From: an uncultured Ruminococcus sp.
GTDB taxonomy: Bacteria; Bacillota; Clostridia; Oscillospirales; Ruminococcaceae
NCBI GenBank assembly: GCA_946612185.1
Contig: CAMOEP010000010.1
Coordinates: 1 to 18,533 of the forward strand
Direction: 5' to 3'
Length of the DNA stretch: 18,533 nt
Shown: positions 728 to 11,122 of the stretch, one piece after another
Layout: every line of letters starts with the position of its first letter
How positions within the stretch are numbered: position 1 is the stretch's first letter
Position numbers and translations under genes: made by a program
The notes under the pieces: generated by a model
What the model was told of the DNA's origin: nothing
The model's input: only the letters and a program-made list of their open reading frames with translations
Database searches by the model: none

Positions 728-821
728 CAAAAAGCCGACACGCAAAAAACGTATCGGCTTTTATCATCAGAACCCCTCGGAGGTCTATTATTCAGGAAAT
801 CTGAGCATTGGTGTATGGCTT
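728..821 (-). ncRNA. Candidate small RNA (about 95 nt)
   Basis: Transcription from the consensus promoter at 828-856 would start near 821 and stop at the terminator at 729-762, giving an RNA of about 95 nt. It holds only a 6-codon frame (MLRFPE) with no ribosome site, so it is probably non-coding. The middle (775-787) can form a short hairpin and shows CCUCC, the complement of a GGAGG ribosome site. If the terminator leaks, the same RNA would be an attenuated leader of the small protein gene at 201-626. Inferred from signals only; I match it to no known RNA family. Confidence 0.45.
729..762 (-). terminator. Rho-independent terminator, probably bidirectional
   Basis: The stem AAAAGCCGA / TCGGCTTTT continues into ACG / CGT across one mismatch, closed by an A-rich loop. 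On the minus strand it is followed by a T run (plus-strand A at 729-733). It would end the NACHT-pgeF operon and the candidate small RNA. TTTT follows on the plus strand as well. Confidence 0.8.
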
Positions 822-827
822 TGGTAC

Positions 828-856
828 ATTATAGCACAAAAGCCCTATAATGTCAA
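828..856 (-). promoter_or_regulatory. Perfect consensus promoter inside an inverted repeat
   Basis: The minus strand reads TTGACA (plus 851-856), a 17-base spacer, then TATAAT (plus 828-833), a perfect sigma-A consensus. It lies 5 bases past the pgeF stop codon. The same bases form an inverted repeat, ACATTATAG (826-834) and CTATAATGT (845-853) with a 10-base spacer, which could be an operator covering both promoter elements. A TATAAT also reads on the plus strand (846-851), but its -35 is poor. Confidence 0.75.
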
Positions 857-860
857 TATT

Positions 861-1721
861 CTATTTCAGGCGTATCCAGTAACCGTTCTGACCATTAAGG
901 TGAACGTTATTCTCGTCGATAGGGCCACGGCGGAAGCTATGCCAGAGATCAGCGTCCCGGACAGTATCCATATCGTCGATGACGTACACATTTTCCTCGG
1001 ACAGACCGGTGCTGAGGAGGATCTTGCGGTTCACGCCGGGGAGATCAACATGGGGCTTATCGTAGCGGCGTTCATCTACAAACTCACCGAAGCCTGCGTC
1101 TTTAAACTGCTTTGCAACGTCAGCGCCCACCTCAAAATTATCAATTCCGATAGAAGGGCATACCACGCAGATAATGTCCTTGATATCAGAGCCGTACTGA
1201 GCGACAAAAGCTTCTACTTCCTTCTGGAATATTCCAACAAGAGAACCTCTCCATGAAGCGTGGCAGCTTCCGCATACCTTTTTCACCGGGTCGAGGAAGA
1301 AAGCGATAGCGCAGTCGGCGGCGTAGTTGAAAAGGCACACATTCTTGTCATCTGTTATAAGACCGTCGGCTCTGGGAGCGGATTCCTCGCTGTAGATATC
1401 GTATCCCTTCAGGTCATCAGCACTGACGGAGCGCACCTTATCCGTGAAAGCGATAAGGCGGTTAGTGATAACGTCCCTGTCGGAAATTCCCACCGCCTCG
1501 CAGCCCAGACGGAAGTCACGGATACCGTTTTCAAAAATGTCCTGGTCACTGTAAAGCTTGTAAAGATTCGGGTTGAACTTGCCGGCAGGTTCATCTGAAT
1601 CCCCCTCAGCATTACGGATACTTGTGTAAGCCATAGCAACGCCGGTATTATTTATTGGCAGTATACTAAGCATTTTCAAGCCGTTAGGCATTTCGACGAT
1701 CTCATAAATTTTCTTATCCAT
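861..1721 (-). CDS. PgeF/LACC1-family (polyphenol oxidase/purine nucleoside phosphorylase-like) protein, metal-site altered
   Basis: 286 residues, normal length for the Cu-oxidase_4 (PF02578; YfiH/PgeF/LACC1) family. Family members are zinc enzymes of purine nucleoside cleavage. The core is clear: ADGLIT (118-123), ADC with Cys137, then the CHASWRGS segment with His154 and Arg158, CPSIG (188-192), FEVG and a C-terminal SFRRG. Oddity: the first metal-ligand histidine, normally in a QxH motif about 35-45 residues before the ADC, is absent. The frame runs AFTDKVRSV (91-99), as if about five residues carrying QTH had been lost, and no His occurs before His154. The usual late CT motif reads DT. 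ATG 1721 has an AAGGAG site whose bases overlap the stop codon of the upstream NACHT gene (10-base gap), so the two are likely translationally coupled. Activity may be lost or changed. Confidence 0.85.
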   Translation of the reverse strand: MDKKIYEIVEMPNGLKMLSILPINNTGVAMAYTSIRNAEGDSDEPAGKFNPNLYKLYSDQDIFENGIRDFRLGCEAVGISDRDVITNRLIAFTDKVRSVSADDLKGYDIYSEESAPRADGLITDDKNVCLFNYAADCAIAFFLDPVKKVCGSCHASWRGSLVGIFQKEVEAFVAQYGSDIKDIICVVCPSIGIDNFEVGADVAKQFKDAGFGEFVDERRYDKPHVDLPGVNRKILLSTGLSEENVYVIDDMDTVRDADLWHSFRRGPIDENNVHLNGQNGYWIRLK

Positions 1722-1731
1722 TGTAATCTCC

Positions 1732-4700
1732 TTAAATAGTGAAGTAGTCTTTCAGCAGGTCGATGAATGATCGTTTTGTCTGATCGTTTTCAAAAACGCA
1801 GGTACTCAGGTCGATATCGTGGTTAGCGATAAGGTCGGCGTGGGTATTGATGAAATCGGAAACCGAAATGGTATCGGAAGTGAAGTTCAGCCTCATGATC
1901 TGACCGTTAAGCAGTCCCACAAGGGCAAGGTCGTCAAGCACGTCGATGCAAATGGGCTGAGCGGGAGTCTTAACGCTTGCAATATCCGCAGCGATAGTCA
2001 TATCCGGGTTCAGTTTCAGCGCAGCAATGGTGTTGTTCTTGTTAAGCACGATAAGGCGCATATTCTCTTTGGAGTTAATAAAGGCGAATGAATTAGCGCT
2101 GTCGCCAACGGGAATGGAAGCGGAGGAAATGACCTGATAATCGCTGCTTGAAATGATACGGATAACGACCACGAAGGACTTCTGCTCCTTACCGCCGGCA
2201 GCGATAAGGTAATTTTTTCCGTCCACGGAGCAGTTAGTCATCTGTCGGATAAACACATCTTCGCCAAGGTTGAGAAGCTGCTTTATCTCACCTTCGGAAA
2301 CTGTGCCGAGGATTCCGTCCGAGCCGCTGCCCTGGTTGTAGAACACCAGAGGAACGTCGTTTGCCTCATCAGCGCCGATATTCTCAGTAATTGCCCGGAG
2401 TTTGTGCTTATCCGGAGCATGGACAGGAGTACTATCGCATACAAGCTTGCCGCCGGTATTACGGCAGTGATATATAGCAGACTGTGAGATCGCCCAGAGG
2501 TCGCCGGAATCCGAGGAAATGCAGAAGTCAAGGATAGGCTCATTTCCCTGAATGAGGACTTCCGGAGCATCGAAAGAACGCAGGTTAGTGAGCATAAGGG
2601 TCTTGTCATAGGAGCAGGTAAGGATATTGCTGCACTTGCTGTTCCAGTTGTCGAAATCCAGTGCGCAGATTTTCCACACCCAGTCCTTGTGAATCTTCCT
2701 GACGTTCCTGACAGACCACACGCCTTCCGGTTTGGCGGATTCATCGCAGTCCTCCTCCGGTTCTTCACTCAGGTCATTAAAAAGCGGGTCATTAACGAGC
2801 TGCTTCACAGTACTGTAGGAGATATGCAGCGCATTTCCGTCATAAAGAGCGCAAATAGCATTATTGCTGTCGAGGATCCTGATATCGTGTACACCGTTGT
2901 AAGCGCCGCTGATGTGGTTGATAGCGATATCCTCCACGTCAGGCACTTGAATGTCGATAGAGCGGTCATCGCAGGTAGTAGCAAGGCGTGTGTGATCGGT
3001 GTCAGAGAGACGGAAGAAAACGCCGGAGTGGGTAGCAAGTTTCTGCTCGTTACGGATGATCTTAACATTGACCTCAGGCGCATCGGCGGAATTATTGCCT
3101 GAAACGGATATCATAAAGAAGTCGGGCATATTGTCGTAATTATCATTTTTGTACGCACGGATACCCACCAGTACGCCCTCCGCATTATTATTGAGTTCCG
3201 GAGGTATCTCCGAGAGGTAGGTGAAGAAAAAGTCCCTGTCATTCACATAAAAAGAGAAAGTATTCTTCTCAGGATCTTTGTTATTAGTGAGACAGACACG
3301 GTAAACCTCGCTTATACCCTTATTGATATCAATAATTGAAATGCAGAAGCCCTCATTTATGAAGATATAGTTTTTTGAAGCGTAGATATCCAGAATAAGT
3401 TCCGGTTCGGGACGGCCACGTTTTATGTTGAACCCTTTTTTCGTTAACTTACCAGTTTTAGAACTAAAGTACAGCCGAAAGACCTTGCTGCCGAAAGCGA
3501 CGATACCCATATTTCCTCTTTGGGTCATAAAGCAGGTGATGTCCCACTTCATAGCGTAAAACTTTGCTTTAATGCCGTCCAGTTCCTCATTGGAATCGTA
3601 GAGACTGAGCGAACGTAATTCCGTATCATCAGCGGCATAGAGTTCACGGTAGAAAACGTCGCCGGTAGAGTTGCAGAAAACGATATATTCACGCTTTTCA
3701 TGTTCCAGGAAAATGACAGTCTCGATCTCGCCTTTACCCTTACCGGCTTTTTTGGGGTCAATAGTGGCGATAAAGACTTCCTTCTGATAATTGAGTTCCT
3801 TGTATGGGTAGAAAATAGCGACACAGCCGTTTCTACAGCCGAGGAAAATTGCGAGTCTGCCGTTATACATATGCGGAACAGCGTCGATGATCCAGTCGCA
3901 GTCTAACATACCCCGGATAATTTCCACCTGATTTTCCGCAACGTCGATTATCATTGCGGTAGTAGCGGCGAAAGCAGCGATGAAGGTCTTGCCGCCAAGC
4001 TGATACTTGCAGATGGTAGAGGAAGCAGTTTGCAGACCGTCTTTCAGAAAGGTATTTGCGCTGATCTTCGAGCCGGCGAGGTTAATAACATTAGTACCCT
4101 CCCTGTCGAAAAGTTCATATCCGCTGAGGGATATTTCAGTGAGATCGAGGTAACTGAGGTTAAGTTCAGCGATGCAGTTATGGTGGGAGAAAGCGAATAT
4201 CCTGACAAGGACACTGAGGGGGAAGTCATAGTTATCCTTGTAGATACCCACGATCCTTTCCTTATTATTGCGGAGAATGTCAATTATCTCCTGGATTTTG
4301 CCGCCGCTTATGAAGCATGATACAAGTTCAAGTATCTCGTCATTGGTGGTGATACTATTATTAACGAAAGTTTCGCCGTCGTCGAGAATCCTTACGATAT
4401 TATCAGCATCTATATTTTTAAGCTGCTTGGCGAAGTACTGGGCGCAGTAATTATCACGGAAATTCTGGTGGCTGAATTCAAAGGAATCCTCACCGCAATC
4501 GTTTGAACTGAGTGAAAAAATGGACTCAACGTTATTTTCAGCCTTAAAAAGGGTATCAAGTTCGCTGCTTGAGAGCAGGGATTCCATTTCATTGTAGGAG
4601 ATCTTGAACGTGTTATGGAGAAGCATGAATCTGGCGATCCTTTCAAGCAGACCGTAAACCAGCAGCTTCTCATGGGCAGAGGTTATATTCAGCAAAGTGT

Positions 4701-6054
4701 CGATATAATCGAAAATAAGCTGACCAAGAGAAGTGATATTCTTTATTTTTGAAAGATTATTTCCGACGTAGTCCGCAAACATCACGCAGCCCTGGGGAGT
4801 TTCCAGGAGTTTTCTGGTCGAGAAGGGAACATCTTTGTATCTTGCGCTGCACCCAACGTCATGGAAATAGGTGTCGATCTGATCTCTGGAGAGCGGGAGG
4901 ACTTTAGCCTTGCTAAAGACCTGGTCTGAACCGTAGTTAAGGCTGTTGAAGCTGCTGGTATGGTCTATACGGCTGGACACAAGAAAACGAGTACCATACT
5001 GCTGGCGGAGAAAGCAGATATCGCTGGCTATCTTCATGCGCATTTTTGAGTCAGTGACTTCGTTAAGACCGTCAGCGAAAATGAGCATATTCCCGGCACA
5101 TTTACTGAGAACATCTTCAACAGTTTCCGGCTCATTATGCCAGACGTAGCGGGCAAGGTAAGCGACGATAATATTGCCGCTGATGACGTTTTCAAGACTG
5201 TTGAGAGGAAGGTAAATTGGGATAGTATCCTTAGCGGCATCGGGTATACTTATAATAGTCTGTTCATCGTCGGTAGTAGTACCTGAGAGGATATCCTCGA
5301 TACAGTGGAATATCTGGTAGGTCTTGCCAGAACCGCCGTGACCGCACAGATTCACGGAATCCTTGCCGTTCATAAATAGGATATCCATCAGGGAGTACTT
5401 GCCGTTTTCGTCGATAGACAGTTTATTTTTCAGATGTTGGATAGGAGTGCCGCTGCGAGTCTCGAAGTAGCCACGGTATCTGCCAGTCCCTTTTTTAGCG
5501 GTGAACCAGGCTTTTGCCACTTCGATCGGAGAATTGGCAGGTTTTGGGGTATTCGCAGGGGGGGCTGGGGTAGGCGCAGGTGGGGCTAAGGTCGCAAGAT
5601 ATTCTTCAAGGGCTTTGTCGCTTTCGTAGCGCTCATTATCCGGCAATTGATCCAGGTTGAAAGTGCTTTTTTTCGCTTGCTGAACCGGCGAAGGATAGCA
5701 GGCGCATAAAAGGATATCGCACAAGATCTCAAACAGCGAAATATCGTCAGCTTTGGAAAGATATAGATATCTGTATAATTTGCGTAATTTTTCATCTGGC
5801 ATTCTTGGGCGAAAGTTCATTTTGATATACGTTTCTTCGTCTTTATGTTTTTTTTTGCTTTGCTCTATATCGTCTGTAAAGCCTTTTGTACTGTTAGCTC
5901 CACTCATTTTTTTGGTAATGTTGCCCTCAGATATGCTAAGGTCGGTAATAATACTGAATACATTATCAGCTAACCACTTTGCACCTGTTCCTTTTTGTCC
6001 TGGATTAAAGGCTTGTGTAAAGTCTTTTAATGTAAAATCTTCTCGCATATACAT
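1732..6054 (-). CDS. NACHT-domain STAND NTPase (NLR-like) with C-terminal beta-propeller
   Basis: 1440 residues. Order seen: an unfamiliar N-terminal domain (about 1-125), a Pro/Ala-rich linker (about 156-176), a linking region, the NACHT NTPase with Walker A GHGGSGKT (238-245), Walker B LIFADGLNEV (324-333) and sensor FLVSSR (357-362), then a winged-helix end with the SFEFSHQNFRDNY motif near 525-537. A short stretch resembling pentapeptide/LRR layers (about 634-670) leads into roughly 770 residues of beta-rich repeats. These resemble WD40-type propellers; SYDKTLMLTNL near residue 1200 is WD-like. In bacterial NLR-like defence proteins the C-terminal part senses a phage or stress ligand, the NACHT oligomerises, and the N-terminal part is the effector. 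Here the effector domain is unrecognised. The start has AAGGAAG six bases upstream; ATG at codon 3 is an alternative. A consensus promoter lies about 245 bases upstream. Antiphage function is inferred from architecture. Confidence 0.85.
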   Translation of the reverse strand: MYMREDFTLKDFTQAFNPGQKGTGAKWLADNVFSIITDLSISEGNITKKMSGANSTKGFTDDIEQSKKKHKDEETYIKMNFRPRMPDEKLRKLYRYLYLSKADDISLFEILCDILLCACYPSPVQQAKKSTFNLDQLPDNERYESDKALEEYLATLAPPAPTPAPPANTPKPANSPIEVAKAWFTAKKGTGRYRGYFETRSGTPIQHLKNKLSIDENGKYSLMDILFMNGKDSVNLCGHGGSGKTYQIFHCIEDILSGTTTDDEQTIISIPDAAKDTIPIYLPLNSLENVISGNIIVAYLARYVWHNEPETVEDVLSKCAGNMLIFADGLNEVTDSKMRMKIASDICFLRQQYGTRFLVSSRIDHTSSFNSLNYGSDQVFSKAKVLPLSRDQIDTYFHDVGCSARYKDVPFSTRKLLETPQGCVMFADYVGNNLSKIKNITSLGQLIFDYIDTLLNITSAHEKLLVYGLLERIARFMLLHNTFKISYNEMESLLSSSELDTLFKAENNVESIFSLSSNDCGEDSFEFSHQNFRDNYCAQYFAKQLKNIDADNIVRILDDGETFVNNSITTNDEILELVSCFISGGKIQEIIDILRNNKERIVGIYKDNYDFPLSVLVRIFAFSHHNCIAELNLSYLDLTEISLSGYELFDREGTNVINLAGSKISANTFLKDGLQTASSTICKYQLGGKTFIAAFAATTAMIIDVAENQVEIIRGMLDCDWIIDAVPHMYNGRLAIFLGCRNGCVAIFYPYKELNYQKEVFIATIDPKKAGKGKGEIETVIFLEHEKREYIVFCNSTGDVFYRELYAADDTELRSLSLYDSNEELDGIKAKFYAMKWDITCFMTQRGNMGIVAFGSKVFRLYFSSKTGKLTKKGFNIKRGRPEPELILDIYASKNYIFINEGFCISIIDINKGISEVYRVCLTNNKDPEKNTFSFYVNDRDFFFTYLSEIPPELNNNAEGVLVGIRAYKNDNYDNMPDFFMISVSGNNSADAPEVNVKIIRNEQKLATHSGVFFRLSDTDHTRLATTCDDRSIDIQVPDVEDIAINHISGAYNGVHDIRILDSNNAICALYDGNALHISYSTVKQLVNDPLFNDLSEEPEEDCDESAKPEGVWSVRNVRKIHKDWVWKICALDFDNWNSKCSNILTCSYDKTLMLTNLRSFDAPEVLIQGNEPILDFCISSDSGDLWAISQSAIYHCRNTGGKLVCDSTPVHAPDKHKLRAITENIGADEANDVPLVFYNQGSGSDGILGTVSEGEIKQLLNLGEDVFIRQMTNCSVDGKNYLIAAGGKEQKSFVVVIRIISSSDYQVISSASIPVGDSANSFAFINSKENMRLIVLNKNNTIAALKLNPDMTIAADIASVKTPAQPICIDVLDDLALVGLLNGQIMRLNFTSDTISVSDFINTHADLIANHDIDLSTCVFENDQTKRSFIDLLKDYFTI

Positions 6055-6297: not shown

Positions 6298-6326
6298 ATT
6301 TTACCACAGATCACGCAATGTGTCAA
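6298..6326 (-). promoter_or_regulatory. Promoter of the NACHT-pgeF operon
   Basis: On the minus strand: TTGACA (plus 6321-6326), a 17-base spacer, then TAAAAT (plus 6298-6303). The start near 6291 gives a leader of about 235 bases that passes through both direct repeats before the NACHT start codon. No other good minus-strand promoter was found closer to the gene. Confidence 0.65.
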
Positions 6327-6374: not shown

Positions 6375-6502
6375 TCAGTTACTTGACAACTGAATAAACA
6401 CGGGCCGCCTGTATCAGGGACAGAGTGCCATGCGGAACGAAAGTTCCAAGCGCTCCCCTGGTTTAAGTGTACACAGTACGCCCAAGCGGAGAAAACCGTG
6501 TC
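6375..6502 (+). ncRNA. Structured RNA, three-way junction with GAAA-capped arm; unknown class
   Basis: The stretch folds well by eye. A first hairpin TCAGTT/AACTGA (6375-6380 with 6388-6393) precedes a closed domain. In that domain P1 pairs ACACGG (6398-6403) with CCGTGT (6496-6501) and CCGC (6405-6408) with GCGG (6486-6489), leaving AGAAAA unpaired. P2 pairs CAGGG (6415-6419) with CCCTG (6456-6460), then GAGTGC (6423-6428) with GCGCTC (6450-6455), then GGAAC (6434-6438) with GTTCC (6443-6447) around a GAAA tetraloop. P3 pairs GTGTAC (6467-6472) with GTACGC (6476-6481). It lies about 40 bases before the nuclease start codon with no terminator between, so it may be a cis-regulatory leader; a free RNA is also possible. 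It matches no riboswitch or ribozyme I know. Confidence 0.55.
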
Positions 6503-6542
6503 ATACGAATTCACATTAATAAATAAAAAGGGGAAATGTATT

Positions 6543-7916
6543 ATGTTACACTTTGAATCTATTAACCATTCCAAAATAGAAAAGTACATGGCAGCCATGT
6601 TATCCGGCGATGAGAAAAAGTTACCCAATAACCAGAAAATGCTGATAGAAGGGGTAAAATGCGTTAAGGTAGTCAAGAAGAAGATAGTACCTGTTAGCGC
6701 TAAGAAAGAAGCCGAAGAAGTTTTCGAGCTTGAAACTCCCACCGAGGACGCAAAACAGGAGCAGGAAGAAACCGGAGAAGTTTCCGAAGCCGATACAGTC
6801 AAGGAACAGCCTGAGCCTGAAACTCCCACCGAGGACGCAAAACAGGAGCAGGAAGAAGCTGAGGAAGTTTCCGAAGCCGATACAGCCGAGAAACAGCCTG
6901 AACCTGAGACTCCCACCGAGTACGTAAAACAGGAGCAGGAAGAAACCGGAGAAGTATCCGAAGCCGATGCAGCCGATGAACAGCCTGAAACTCCTGCCGA
7001 GGACGCAAAACAGGAGCAGGAAGAAACCGAGGAAGTTTCCGAAGCCGATGCAGTCAAGGAACAGCCTGAGCCTGAAACTCCCACCGAGGACGCAAAACCT
7101 GAGCAGGAAGAAACCGGGGAAGTTTCCGAAGCCGATACAGCCAATGAACAGCCTGAGCCTGAAACTCCTGCTGATGATACACCTGGAAATGTTATCTTCG
7201 ACCACTTTCTGACTAACGACTACGTTATATCTGAATACTCCGAGCCAGATGCAATTCCCGGTTTAAGAGCCCTTACATATAAAATAGGCGCACATTACAA
7301 CAGGCTTGCACCGTTCCTTCAAGAAGCGAGAAAAGCTATCAGTAACAAGCAGCTTCATGAAAAAACAGTGAGCATAAGCATAAATGACAGCGACAAGCCC
7401 ATTTATAACGATCTGCTTACCGTTATGAGAAAGTACGGCTTACTGACCAAGCACAACATTGAAAAGAACCGCCTGACCGCAACGATCAGCCCTGTTCCCA
7501 GAGTTCAGAGTTACCTTGGCGGCAAATGGCTGGAGCTGTTCTCAACCTACATATTCGAGGAAGTTGTAGGGGATTTCGCTAAGTCCAGAGGTCTTGACTA
7601 TGAGATACTCATGAACGTTAAGGTCACTCTGATAAAGTCCAAGGGAAACTGCGCTCACGAACTGGACAGCGTTATCTCTGTCGGTGACAAGTGCTTCGCT
7701 TTTGAAGCCAAGAGTGGCAGCAATTTCAACGACTACGCTAAACTCTACAAGACCCTCAAGGAACTTGCTTTCGTGCCTGACCGCTATCTTCTTCTCCAGC
7801 CTACACTGGAAGATGATACTGCGCTGACACTTCAGTACTTCTATGAATTCTTTGTTACCAATATGCAGAACTTCAAGAATGTCACCAGAGAAATGCTTGA
7901 GAAGGCATTCGCATAA
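6543..7916 (+). CDS. PD-(D/E)xK nuclease, DUF1887/Card1-like C-terminus, with acidic repeat linker
   Basis: 457 residues. The N-terminal 60 residues are basic and unrecognised. Residues 64-206 are five tandem acidic repeats rich in E, P, Q and T, almost certainly disordered. Residues about 216-320 look like a small winged-helix domain (YNRLAPFLQEARKAI; KYGLLTKHNI). The C-terminal nuclease has WLE (Glu331), ELD (Asp375) and FEAKSG (Glu388, Lys390), the PD-(D/E)xK core, and its GGKWLE...ELD...EAK order resembles DUF1887 proteins such as Card1/Can2. No CARF sensor domain is seen. Start ATG 6543 has AAGGGG seven to nine bases upstream; an in-frame GTG at 6498 is rejected because it lies in the RNA stem. 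The winged-helix gene follows after 13 bases. DNA or RNA cleavage is inferred from the motif only. Confidence 0.7.
   Translation: MLHFESINHSKIEKYMAAMLSGDEKKLPNNQKMLIEGVKCVKVVKKKIVPVSAKKEAEEVFELETPTEDAKQEQEETGEVSEADTVKEQPEPETPTEDAKQEQEEAEEVSEADTAEKQPEPETPTEYVKQEQEETGEVSEADAADEQPETPAEDAKQEQEETEEVSEADAVKEQPEPETPTEDAKPEQEETGEVSEADTANEQPEPETPADDTPGNVIFDHFLTNDYVISEYSEPDAIPGLRALTYKIGAHYNRLAPFLQEARKAISNKQLHEKTVSISINDSDKPIYNDLLTVMRKYGLLTKHNIEKNRLTATISPVPRVQSYLGGKWLELFSTYIFEEVVGDFAKSRGLDYEILMNVKVTLIKSKGNCAHELDSVISVGDKCFAFEAKSGSNFNDYAKLYKTLKELAFVPDRYLLLQPTLEDDTALTLQYFYEFFVTNMQNFKNVTREMLEKAFA
6732..7160 (+). repeat. Five in-frame tandem repeats of 87 bp (one 81 bp)
   Basis: Codons 64-206 of the nuclease gene repeat five times. 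Each unit is 29 residues and starts ETPTEDAKQEQEE, then GEVSEAD and EQPEP. The third unit is two residues shorter (EQP then ET). Units differ by a few substitutions, so the array is not brand new but is still prone to copy-number change. It produces long but meaningless open frames on the opposite strand. Confidence 0.95.
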
Positions 7917-8877: not shown

Positions 8878-8983
8878 AAAACCGTATTCAAGTACGACGC
8901 TGATACAGAAGTCTTATGCCATGGTATTTCTGATCTATCGTCAGAAGTACTGTGGCATTTCTGTTGACAATACAGCGGTTTTT
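8878..8983 (+). terminator. Long structured hairpin ending the nuclease operon
   Basis: An outer stem AAAACCG (8878-8884) with CGGTTTT (8976-8982), extended by TATT/AATA, encloses a long hairpin. The inner arms 8916-8933 and 8941-8958 pair over 18 bases without a gap (3 are G-T wobbles) around a 7-base loop. CAGAA (8906-8910) with TTCTG (8959-8963) continues it after a bulge. The T-rich tail suits a terminator for the upstream pair of genes. The size (106 bp) is large for one, so a small palindromic mobile repeat is an alternative. Confidence 0.6.
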
Positions 8984-9084: not shown

Positions 9085-9672
9085 ATGAATATTCAGGTAA
9101 AATCAAGCAACGGCATCACACTTGTTCCTGCTGAGTCAAGACTCTTATCTGACAGGAAAATATTTATCGAGGGGGAGATAAATGAAAAGACAGCATTGGA
9201 GTTCCTCAAACAGATGATGATACTCGTCAAGGAGGATAAGAATCTTCCCATTGATGTGCTGATAAACTCACCCGGCGGCAAGATCAATTCCGGACTGATG
9301 ATGTATGACGTGATACAGTCCTGTGAAGCAACCGTGAGAATGTTCTGCATTGGCGGCGCTTACAGTATGGCAGCAGTACTTTTCGCCAGCGGCAAACACG
9401 GCAGATTCATGCTTCCCAACAGTGAACTGATGCTTCACGAGCCTCTTATAAGCAACGGTGTCAGCGGAAACGCATCTTCCATACAGTCCATATCCGAAAG
9501 TCTCCTTGCCACAAGGGAGAAGATGAACGGTATCCTCGCAAAGCATACCGGCAAGACTGTTGAGGAGATAGAGGAAGCTACCCGTTTCGACCACTACTAT
9601 TCCGCAGAAGAAAGCATAGCATTTGGTCTGGCAGATGAGATAGCCGGATTTGAGAAGATAATGGAGGGCTAA
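9085..9672 (+). CDS. ClpP-like serine peptidase (S14 family)
   Basis: 195 residues, the normal length for mature ClpP. The catalytic triad is complete: Ser94 in GGAYSMAA, His118 in LMLHEP, Asp169 in TRFDHYYSAEE. The oxyanion NSPGG is at 61-65. It differs from housekeeping ClpP (which has GQAASM and MIHQP), so it is a divergent accessory copy like those encoded by phages and integrative elements. AGGAAAGGAA precedes ATG 9085. The ATPase gene begins one base after its stop, so the two are co-translated and may act together. ClpP needs a partner unfoldase for folded substrates. The neighbour is a VirD4-like ATPase and not a Clp ATPase, so a physical partnership is speculative. The role could also be processing of an element-encoded protein. 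Confidence 0.85.
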   Translation: MNIQVKSSNGITLVPAESRLLSDRKIFIEGEINEKTALEFLKQMMILVKEDKNLPIDVLINSPGGKINSGLMMYDVIQSCEATVRMFCIGGAYSMAAVLFASGKHGRFMLPNSELMLHEPLISNGVSGNASSIQSISESLLATREKMNGILAKHTGKTVEEIEEATRFDHYYSAEESIAFGLADEIAGFEKIMEG

Positions 9673-9673
9673 G

Positions 9674-10960
9674 ATGAAAGATAAAATGATATTGGGAGAA
9701 AACATCGAGTTCACCACCGACAGCGAGATAACAGGGGTAAATAATAACGTTATCGTATGCGCCGGAAGCGGCTGCGGAAAAACACTGTCAATAGTTGACC
9801 CAAGGCTTCTGAATACATACGATTCCAGCCTTATCGTCACTGTCACAAAGCGCAGGCTGGTATACCAGTACACTCAGATGTTCAAGAAAAGAGGCTACAA
9901 CGTACTCGACCTTAACTTCGTAAAGCCCCAGAACAGCAACATTGCCTTTGACCCCTTGAAGTACATAAAAAGCTACACCGACATAACCTTCATTGCTGAG
10001 TCCATAGTCAAGGCGAACCCCCGGAAAGAACATACTACTGCTGACCCTTTCTGGGACGATAACTCTGTAAGTCTGCTGTCCGCACTTATCGCATACACAA
10101 TGGGAGAAAACAAGGACGCAACCTTCGATGACGTTATTGAGATGTTCACACGCATGACTATTGAAGAAGACGGAACAGGTATCACTACCAATTTGGACAG
10201 AAAGTTTGAAAATACAAACACCTTTGCCAAAAACCGCTGGCGTTCATTCCGTTCACTCCCCATGAAGACCGCAAGCTGCGTATTCTCCACACTCAGCACC
10301 ACTATCGACATGATGTTCACCCCTGAACTGCGCAAGATAATCAATGCCCAGAAAACCGTTGACTTTGAGCGAATCGCAAAGGAAAAGACCGTCCTTTTCG
10401 TGACCACCTCCGCAGTAAATCCCGTGCTGAACCTTTTCGTGAATATGTTCTACGCCCAGGCTATCAAGCAGCTTTTCGAGATAGGCGAGGCTATGCCCGA
10501 CGGCAGACTTCCCATACCCGTAAGCATAATCTGCGATGATTTCGCCACCGGCAGCCGTATCCTGAATTTCCCTGAGTACATATCAATATTCAGAGAAAAG
10601 GGGATATCAGTTACTTTGCTGGTTCAGAGCGAGTCACAGCTTGCATCAATTTACGGTGCAGATGATTCTACGACCATAATCAACAACTGCGATACCTACG
10701 TCTACATGGGCGGAATGGACATCAAGACCGCCAGAAACATCAGCGAGCGCATCGACCGTCCCCTTGACGAAGTGCTTTATATGCCCGTGGGAAAGGTGAT
10801 GATATTCCGCAGAGGACAGCGCCCCATTCAGACAAACAGGTACGACATATTCCATGACCCTGAATTTCTCAAGGAAAAGAAGGTCTATGAAAGCAGAGTC
10901 GTATTGGAAAAGCTTGTGAAATCCGCAGCAGAGTACAAGATCCAGACATCAGTGATGTAG
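9674..10960 (+). CDS. VirD4/TraG-like coupling ATPase without membrane domain
   Basis: 428 residues. Walker A GSGCGKT is at 31-37. Walker B is IPVSIICDDFATG (281-293), followed by the family motif ...FREKGISVTLLVQSESQL... (306-323) with the Gln of a coupling-protein motif III. An all-alpha insert lies between about 120 and 220. Two things are unusual: there are no N-terminal transmembrane helices, and Walker B reads DD (288-289) where DE is common. Coupling proteins bring DNA-protein complexes to a type IV secretion channel; no relaxase or channel genes lie in this window. The ATG follows the ClpP stop by one base, with GGAGGG just upstream. The TAG stop codon is the first three bases of the MITE-like element at 10958-11122, so the C-terminus may have been trimmed or altered by insertion. 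Confidence 0.8.
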   Translation: MKDKMILGENIEFTTDSEITGVNNNVIVCAGSGCGKTLSIVDPRLLNTYDSSLIVTVTKRRLVYQYTQMFKKRGYNVLDLNFVKPQNSNIAFDPLKYIKSYTDITFIAESIVKANPRKEHTTADPFWDDNSVSLLSALIAYTMGENKDATFDDVIEMFTRMTIEEDGTGITTNLDRKFENTNTFAKNRWRSFRSLPMKTASCVFSTLSTTIDMMFTPELRKIINAQKTVDFERIAKEKTVLFVTTSAVNPVLNLFVNMFYAQAIKQLFEIGEAMPDGRLPIPVSIICDDFATGSRILNFPEYISIFREKGISVTLLVQSESQLASIYGADDSTTIINNCDTYVYMGGMDIKTARNISERIDRPLDEVLYMPVGKVMIFRRGQRPIQTNRYDIFHDPEFLKEKKVYESRVVLEKLVKSAAEYKIQTSVM

Positions 10961-11122
10961 GACGTGTTGACACTAATCCTAAAGCGCATCTTTTTGGCAG
11001 AATTTTACGCATACTGCGTCGATAAAACTTGCCGGGCGACAGCCCGCCTGCATTTTATCTTCTTGTCTGCGTAGAAATTCTGCTCAAAAATCTGCGCATT
11101 ATTATAGTGTCAACACGCCCTA
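10958..11122. mobile_element. MITE-like palindromic element (165 bp)
   Basis: Terminal inverted repeats of 18 bp, TAGGACGTGTTGACACTA (10958-10975) and its complement at 11105-11122, differ at one base. The TA at each outer end could be a target-site duplication, as with IS630/Tc1-type transposases. The inside is also a long imperfect palindrome: GCGCA...CAGAATTTTACGCA pairs with TGCGTAGAAATTCTG...TGCGC, and the centre has GATAAAA/TTTTATC and GGGC-GACA-GCCC. There is no open frame for a transposase. The left end overlaps the stop codon of the ATPase gene. Confidence 0.7.

Follow-up and report, generated by a model that had tools for sequence, protein, structure and literature searches.

Does a gene for a NACHT-type STAND NTPase that is followed at once by a gene of the pgeF family form a system with it, or do the two merely lie side by side? 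The question is raised by a locus in an 18,533-nucleotide (nt) stretch of contig CAMOEP010000010.1 (the window), from the 2.6 Mb draft genome of an uncultured Ruminococcus sp., which is held in 433 contigs and is 74% complete. An earlier note on this DNA had described the two open reading frames (ORFs), separated by 10 bases with a ribosome site overlapping the upstream stop codon, and had likened them to the animal pair NOD2 and LACC1. Both ORFs lie on the minus strand where it had placed them, and spacing and overlap alike are borne out: the NACHT stop codon TAA occupies 1734-1732 and the ATG of the PgeF-like gene stands at 1721, leaving a gap of 10 nt. Our comparisons support a pairing that is real, old and specific, and a pair that is accessory rather than core.

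Conservation and distribution of the pair

The genomic context was readable at eight loci (the window, L009-L014 and L015), and in all eight a NACHT-propeller gene lies directly upstream of the PgeF-like gene, represented in L013 by a 207-aa fragment that matches the C-terminus of the L011 NACHT protein (E 4e-21). Seven of the eight upstream genes match our NACHT-propeller profile, that of G056 weakly (55 bits) but with a positive PF05729 result; since the window, L010, L011 and L014 were among the proteins used to build the profile, their matches follow by construction. The gap between the genes is 5-18 nt in the seven loci measured, the PgeF-like start of L012 being unclear. Several loci are incomplete: L009 has the propeller half alone on its contig, the NACHT gene of L012 is split over two frames, the PgeF-like gene of L014 runs off the contig, and the NACHT piece in genome G005 is cut by a contig end and is uninformative. 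Ordinary pgeF loci served as the control: 59 of high score (L017-L046 and L052-L080, with flanks of ~1.5 kb) gave no NACHT match at E 10. The contrast of 8/8 linked with 0/59 ordinary loci is significant even with the L013 fragment scored as a miss (Fisher p = 9e-9), with the reservation that the eight loci are relatives and thus not fully independent. Three more pairs are suggested solely by contigs of equal size (17283, 106249 and 20892).

Among the linked loci, identity falls to about 33% for the PgeF-like protein and about 17% for the NACHT protein, and the distances of the two covary (Mantel r 0.73, p 0.0015, for nine pairs, of which three are those linked through equal-sized contigs, and with L009, L012 and L015 entered as partial NACHT reads). 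The one pair for which dN/dS was estimated, L011/L012, gave 0.09 for the PgeF-like gene against 0.25 for the NACHT gene, the latter being frame-split in L012. The earlier note had allowed that the neighbours of pgeF might differ among relatives; all eight loci share the NACHT-type neighbour.

The PgeF-like gene is the sole PF02578 gene found in its own assembly, and of 100 host-family genomes sampled, 97 show no DUF152/PF02578 protein at all. The three family genomes that do (its own, G010 and G056) each carry the PF02578 gene beside a NACHT gene. Across 197 family genomes the PgeF-like gene occurs in these three, and the NACHT gene likewise in three (its own, G010 and G005), so that, of the earlier note's alternative of an only pgeF in a conserved core locus, the single copy is borne out as far as the 74%-complete assembly goes, and the core locus is not. 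The PgeF-like profile finds a match in 250 of 394 genomes of the order, all of which except the window's own lie outside the host family. Six genomes were reached through L009-L014: four have the linked copy only, the genome search of R. albus 8 (L014) gave no match, its gene being cut by the contig end, and G569 has two copies, one linked (L011) and one ordinary pgeF (L046) that has no NACHT match nearby. The second, normal pgeF envisaged in the earlier note was therefore not found in the window's own 74%-complete assembly, but the two types do coexist in G569.

Queried with the PgeF-like protein, a set of 5.8 billion proteins returned 58 matches, 55 at 47-99% identity and three at 34% or less, and a profile search returned 671, among the best 120 of which scores drop from 298 to 222 bits past the linked clade. 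A scan of 84,980 species found six loci, all in Clostridia; its patterns were of the window type, and more divergent members such as G056 would therefore be missed. In the phylum sample (398 genomes) the window's protein alone rose out of the ordinary range, the runner-up scoring 193.5 bits, and the class sample (321 genomes) held one other match (E 1e-60), which reads as an ordinary PgeF with a flank lacking NACHT; the flank of L091 gave no NACHT match at E 1. Because the phylum and class samples add no other linked protein, the range of the system seems narrow as far as the sampling reaches, and the adjacency that the earlier note had proposed to look for across distant taxa was found here in Clostridia only, where all eight loci conserve it. 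Carriage as viral cargo was rejected, since two scans of viral contigs found no relative. Records from plasmids (28) and phages (7) are all below 60% identity, those listed at 25-37%; the phage records are unannotated, and of the eight plasmid records listed six are annotated pgeF or yfiH and two are unannotated. In other families of the order, an ordinary PgeF is fused behind a ~300-aa domain (L031, L034, L035, L037), which by eye resembles an exonuclease.

The two proteins

The PgeF-like protein scores 140.7 bits against PF02578 (cut-off 22.9) and has the PgeF/YlmD fold, and on both counts belongs to the DUF152 superfamily. Against TIGR00726, the PgeF equivalog model, it scores 107.2 bits, under the cut-off of 141.15, as do L011 (137.3) and P0076 (138.3), while L004 (158.8) and P0104 (148.6) exceed it. 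We compared 94 linked proteins, comprising 84 of the window type (group A) and 10 intermediates (group B), with 69 ordinary PgeFs. Linked and ordinary proteins separate with 100/100 support in a tree of 68 chosen proteins (IQ-TREE; 23 from group A, 10 from group B and 35 ordinary), in which group B forms a grade leading to group A.

The catalytic triad D89/C107/H124 (YfiH numbering) is complete in 84/84 window-type, 10/10 intermediate and 69/69 ordinary proteins, and the Cys137 and His154 singled out in the earlier note are as it stated and invariant. The surrounding specificity residues are not. Gln69, which sets PgeF specificity, is found in 0/94 linked and 69/69 ordinary proteins, and His71 (YlmD His80, a ribose contact) is absent from 84/84 window-type proteins and present in 10/10 of group B; every ordinary PgeF carries both residues of this motif, and none of the 84 window-type proteins carries either. 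Group B thus retains all three residues of the Cys-His-His ribose site (10/10), and the window type lacks the LACC1/FAMIN form of that site. Near the C-terminus, N276 of the window protein sits where 60/69 ordinary PgeFs have Arg, and Asn replaces it in 93/94 linked proteins; Arg235 was compared through this consensus Arg at column 276 because there the row for E. coli YfiH appears to be displaced by two columns. A first alignment in which the catalytic His appeared to have turned into Arg97 was dropped, as a wider one places the His at 91/92.

Ordinary PgeF takes L-Ser or L-Ala off UDP-N-acetylmuramic acid (UDP-MurNAc) monopeptide. E. coli YfiH is reported as a UDP-MurNAc-L-Ser amidase (PMC8844914, in part). 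Judged by its residues, the window protein is likelier a Cys hydrolase of altered specificity than a purine nucleosidase. Since Gln69 and the consensus Arg235, which read the one free amino acid, are lost, the substrate might, at a guess, be a UDP-MurNAc-peptide of greater length. That the gene is a housekeeping pgeF lying there by accident was rejected in view of a host family mostly without PF02578, the two types in G569, the altered residues and the separate clade.

The window NACHT protein has no Pfam match at E 0.01, and neither it nor the PgeF-like protein matches PADLOC-DB (2023 library) at E 0.01; six NACHT relatives gave two weak PADLOC matches (E 0.01-0.02), nothing convincing. It does carry a Walker A motif (GHGGSGKT, aa 238) and a Walker B-like motif (LIFADGLNEV, aa 324) whose DG.NE is invariant in an alignment of NACHT relatives (A5, 13 rows), and the combination of Walker A with a D-G-x-N/D-E Walker B (here FADGLNEV) fits the NACHT clade of STAND proteins. 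PF05729 (cut-off 26.7 bits) is passed by three of six relatives tested (P0003 26.8, L011 31.7, L015 27.6; L010, P0006 and P0017 fall below), WD40 is above cut-off in P0017, and the family profile matches propeller chains of the RACK1/WDR5 type (best E 2e-7); on these grounds, with the Walker motifs, we regard the protein as a NACHT-propeller. Against P0002-P0021 the first 150 aa are 4-19% identical and the NACHT region 46-65%. Twenty-four N-termini fall into seven groups (BLAST linkage at E 1e-3, a level at which remote kinship is still possible), the largest of which (15 proteins) has no column conserved at 85%. This N-terminal module matches no Pfam domain and contains no recognisable fused enzyme, making an effector in trans plausible. 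Conservation of the C-terminal tail as a docking motif is modest (rank 205 of 796 windows) and we make no claim for it. The same genome holds a further NACHT match (L092, G000:C145; 29.1 bits) in an 855-aa open frame whose N-terminus by eye resembles a protein kinase.

Layout and surroundings of the locus

The NACHT and PgeF-like genes probably form one transcription unit, and the next gene after them (201-626) is probably a separate unit, to judge by the promoter-like sequences and spacing collected in Table 1. A direct repeat had been suspected in front of the NACHT gene but was not found, and the window has no Rfam match.

Table 1. Positions in the window of the two genes, their domains and residues, and nearby signals.
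Feature	Position	Strand	Basis or remark
NACHT-type STAND NTPase with C-terminal beta-propeller region, 1440 aa	1732..6054	minus	ORF; homologues P0002-P0021; PF05729 and WD40 in some relatives
N-terminal ~175 aa, variable module, no recognised domain	5530..6054	minus	4-19% identity; 7 N-terminus groups
NACHT NTPase region, aa 236-420	4795..5349	minus	motifs, alignment
Walker A	5320-5343	minus	within NACHT region
Walker B-like LIFADGLNEV	5056-5085	minus	within NACHT region
beta-propeller region, aa 631-1440, putative sensor	1735..4164	minus	family profile matches RACK1/WDR5-type chains; WD40 in P0017
Shine-Dalgarno AAGGAG	1728..1733	minus	overlaps NACHT stop codon (1732-1734)
PgeF/DUF152-like protein, 286 aa	861..1721	minus	ORF, PF02578 match
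Specificity loop N87-R97, in place of Q-x-H motif of ordinary PgeF	1431..1463	minus	alignment
Asp119 (YfiH Asp89 of catalytic triad)	1365..1367	minus	alignment
Cys137 (YfiH Cys107 nucleophile)	1311..1313	minus	alignment
His154 (YfiH His124)	1260..1262	minus	alignment
Family-specific C-terminal NG-x-NG motif	882..896	minus	alignment
Sigma-70-like promoter, 11/12, TG before second hexamer	6298..6326	minus	upstream of NACHT gene; consensus match only
Sigma-70-like promoter, 12/12 (perfect consensus)	828..856	minus	directly after PgeF-like gene; consensus match only
Hairpin	730-762		beyond promoter 828..856, past PgeF-like gene

Genes of mobile elements accompany several of the loci, with serine recombinases beside (upstream of) L011, a recombinase in L012 by likeness to L011, a relaxase near L013, a transposase near L014 and a VirD4-like protein encoded in the window, and these suggest that the pair may travel as mobile cargo. 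Downstream of the PgeF-like gene, L011 (10967-11806) and L012 (7457-8218) carry the PADLOC gene PDC-M14B, which tblastn did not find in the other linked loci; the two being close relatives, we count this as one event. PDC presumably stands for 'phage defence candidate'. The text of PMC9252829 does not explain PDC names.

Elsewhere in the window, 6498-7916, divergent from the NACHT gene, encodes a protein of 472 aa that has long repeats rich in Glu, Pro and Thr and a weakly CARF-PDDEXK-like C-terminus, and at 9085-10960 a ClpP-like protease, which also resembles the head maturation proteases of phages, immediately precedes the VirD4-like coupling protein. An intergenic element of ~85 nt (8889-8979), with a 19-pair hairpin at 8916-8958 and no Rfam match, has copies at 77-88% identity in many of 20 genomes of the genus searched, and a ~45-nt repeat (10954-11000) has, among the matches listed, about 10 further copies in the same genome, several of them near contig starts. 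In genome G279 (L084, C2:22000-36000), a 1256-aa NACHT-WD40 gene is followed 18 nt on by a 3-dehydroquinate-synthase-like gene and then by ROK-family and short-chain-dehydrogenase-like genes, a sugar-metabolism-like cluster, so such NACHT proteins may regulate metabolism.

What the pair may do

Our tentative reading, and the one we prefer, is that of a two-gene NLR-type immune module in which the NACHT protein activates a PgeF-derived effector that stops the infected cell, perhaps by hydrolysing UDP-MurNAc-peptides. The NACHT protein would sense an invader or its effect through the propeller, the variable N-terminus or both, would switch with ATP and oligomerise, and would then activate or recruit the co-translated Cys-His-Asp hydrolase. 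The most likely chemistry would be amide hydrolysis of a nucleotide-linked cell-wall precursor: with groove and triad kept and the single-amino-acid readers gone, longer UDP-MurNAc-peptides could be admitted and wall synthesis thereby shut down.

Among known systems, the antiphage bNACHT proteins are likewise sporadic in occurrence and have a central NACHT flanked by a module at the N-terminus and a putative sensor at the C-terminus, but here no fused effector is recognised, the partner that recurs is a free-standing, co-translated DUF152 enzyme, and no PADLOC match is convincing. Conflict systems that join effector-associated domains (EAD) with STAND proteins and act through trans effectors also set a sensor beside an enzyme encoded next door, whereas the effectors named in the accessible descriptions are peptidases, nucleases, PNPase, TIR and similar; 'laccase' and 'YfiH' occur 0 times in the accessible part of PMC7159879, and 'laccase' 0 times in that of PMC8195603. 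From PgeF/YfiH itself the linked proteins differ in the sub-threshold TIGR00726 score of the window protein, the replaced residues (His71 in the window type), the extra NGxNG tail, the separate clade and the tie to NACHT. LACC1/FAMIN is, by the literature, a DUF152 protein linked to the NACHT receptor NOD2, but the animal genes are separate, with no operon, and shared ancestry of the two pairings is unsupported here. In the accessible parts of the sources, LACC1 retains the Cys-His-His site (PMC6978800), and purine, citrulline and NOD2-complex roles are all reported for it (PMC6978800, PMC9813773, PMC12687293). We consider it rather unlikely that the pair is a bacterial counterpart of NOD2-LACC1, a NACHT and a DUF152 protein built on UDP-MurNAc-peptide chemistry in which a MurNAc-peptide amidase released by infection collapses wall synthesis. 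In the open-access literature (PMC, which leaves most subscription papers outside), as far as its accessible text goes, we found no description of a bacterial NACHT-DUF152 pair.

Several observations weigh against an immune module. The role in defence is deduced from sequence, the substrate is a guess, and loss of His71 may weaken catalysis. The window NACHT protein matches no Pfam or PADLOC model; among the neighbours tested against PADLOC (8 proteins and 5 from the window) just PDC-M14B stands out, in two close relatives, and the window's own neighbours give just weak PDDEXK-type and mad8 matches. The loci are few, all from Clostridia and several in draft or imperfect bins, including the 74%-complete bin of the window itself; the G056 bin is 6% contaminated and its PgeF-like protein divergent (33-35% identity). 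Among the best family genomes (at least 90% complete, at most 5% contaminated) PF02578 occurs in 1/72, namely G010. A set of 345 genomes of the order gave a single further NACHT match, the NACHT-WD40 gene of G279, which adjoins no PgeF.

NOD2 reads muramyl dipeptide, and the PgeF-like protein could instead be a ligand-binding co-sensor that binds a muropeptide or UDP-MurNAc species and signals to the NACHT protein, which would kill or arrest the cell through its N-terminal module. Replacement of His71, Gln69 and the consensus Arg fits this, as do the proposal of the YfiH authors that a sensor role may have evolved in some DUF152 proteins (PMC8844914, in part) and a review of LACC1 as joining the NOD2 complex (PMC12687293, in part); a triad invariant in 94/94 linked proteins would be unusual for a dead sensor, however, and the largest group of N-terminal modules shows no conserved candidate active site, and we hold the co-sensor unlikely. 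Quite unlikely, too, is a NACHT regulator of metabolic or cell-wall function with the enzyme as its partner: the related gene in a sugar-metabolism-like cluster and the scarcity of defence genes among tested neighbours speak for it, but its sporadic occurrence (3/197 genomes), the mobile-element genes near several loci and the hypervariable N-terminus do not, and several bacterial NACHT proteins have been shown to be antiphage (PMC12169576, in part). We find it distinctly improbable that the protein is a deamidase or peptide amidase modifying a cellular, phage or NACHT protein; fold matches to CheD/NTAN1/CNF are weak and served for such a rival reading only.

Purine nucleoside cleavage like that of FAMIN and YlmD, depleting purines or signalling with them, is very improbable: the fold is the same, the published site retains its Cys and one His, and group B keeps all three residues, but the third ribose-contacting residue is absent throughout the window type, and with that His and the specificity Gln lost the activity is a poor guess, so that of the kinship with LACC1 first proposed the fold stands and the purine chemistry does not. 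Finally, the chance placement of which the earlier note had warned has a negligible probability, for common as pgeF is in the phylum (335/398 genomes match the profile), the locus counts refute it and no ordinary pgeF was found in the 100 sampled host-family genomes.

Should the pair be the counterpart of NOD2-LACC1, its enzyme would found a new class of effectors in abortive infection, and the coupling of LACC1 to NOD2 in animals might become easier to understand. If the immune module that we prefer is real, a housekeeping enzyme of cell-wall editing would have been recruited to work with a bacterial NLR, probably as its effector, and the pair would offer a simple two-gene system for asking what DUF152 proteins do beside NACHT receptors.

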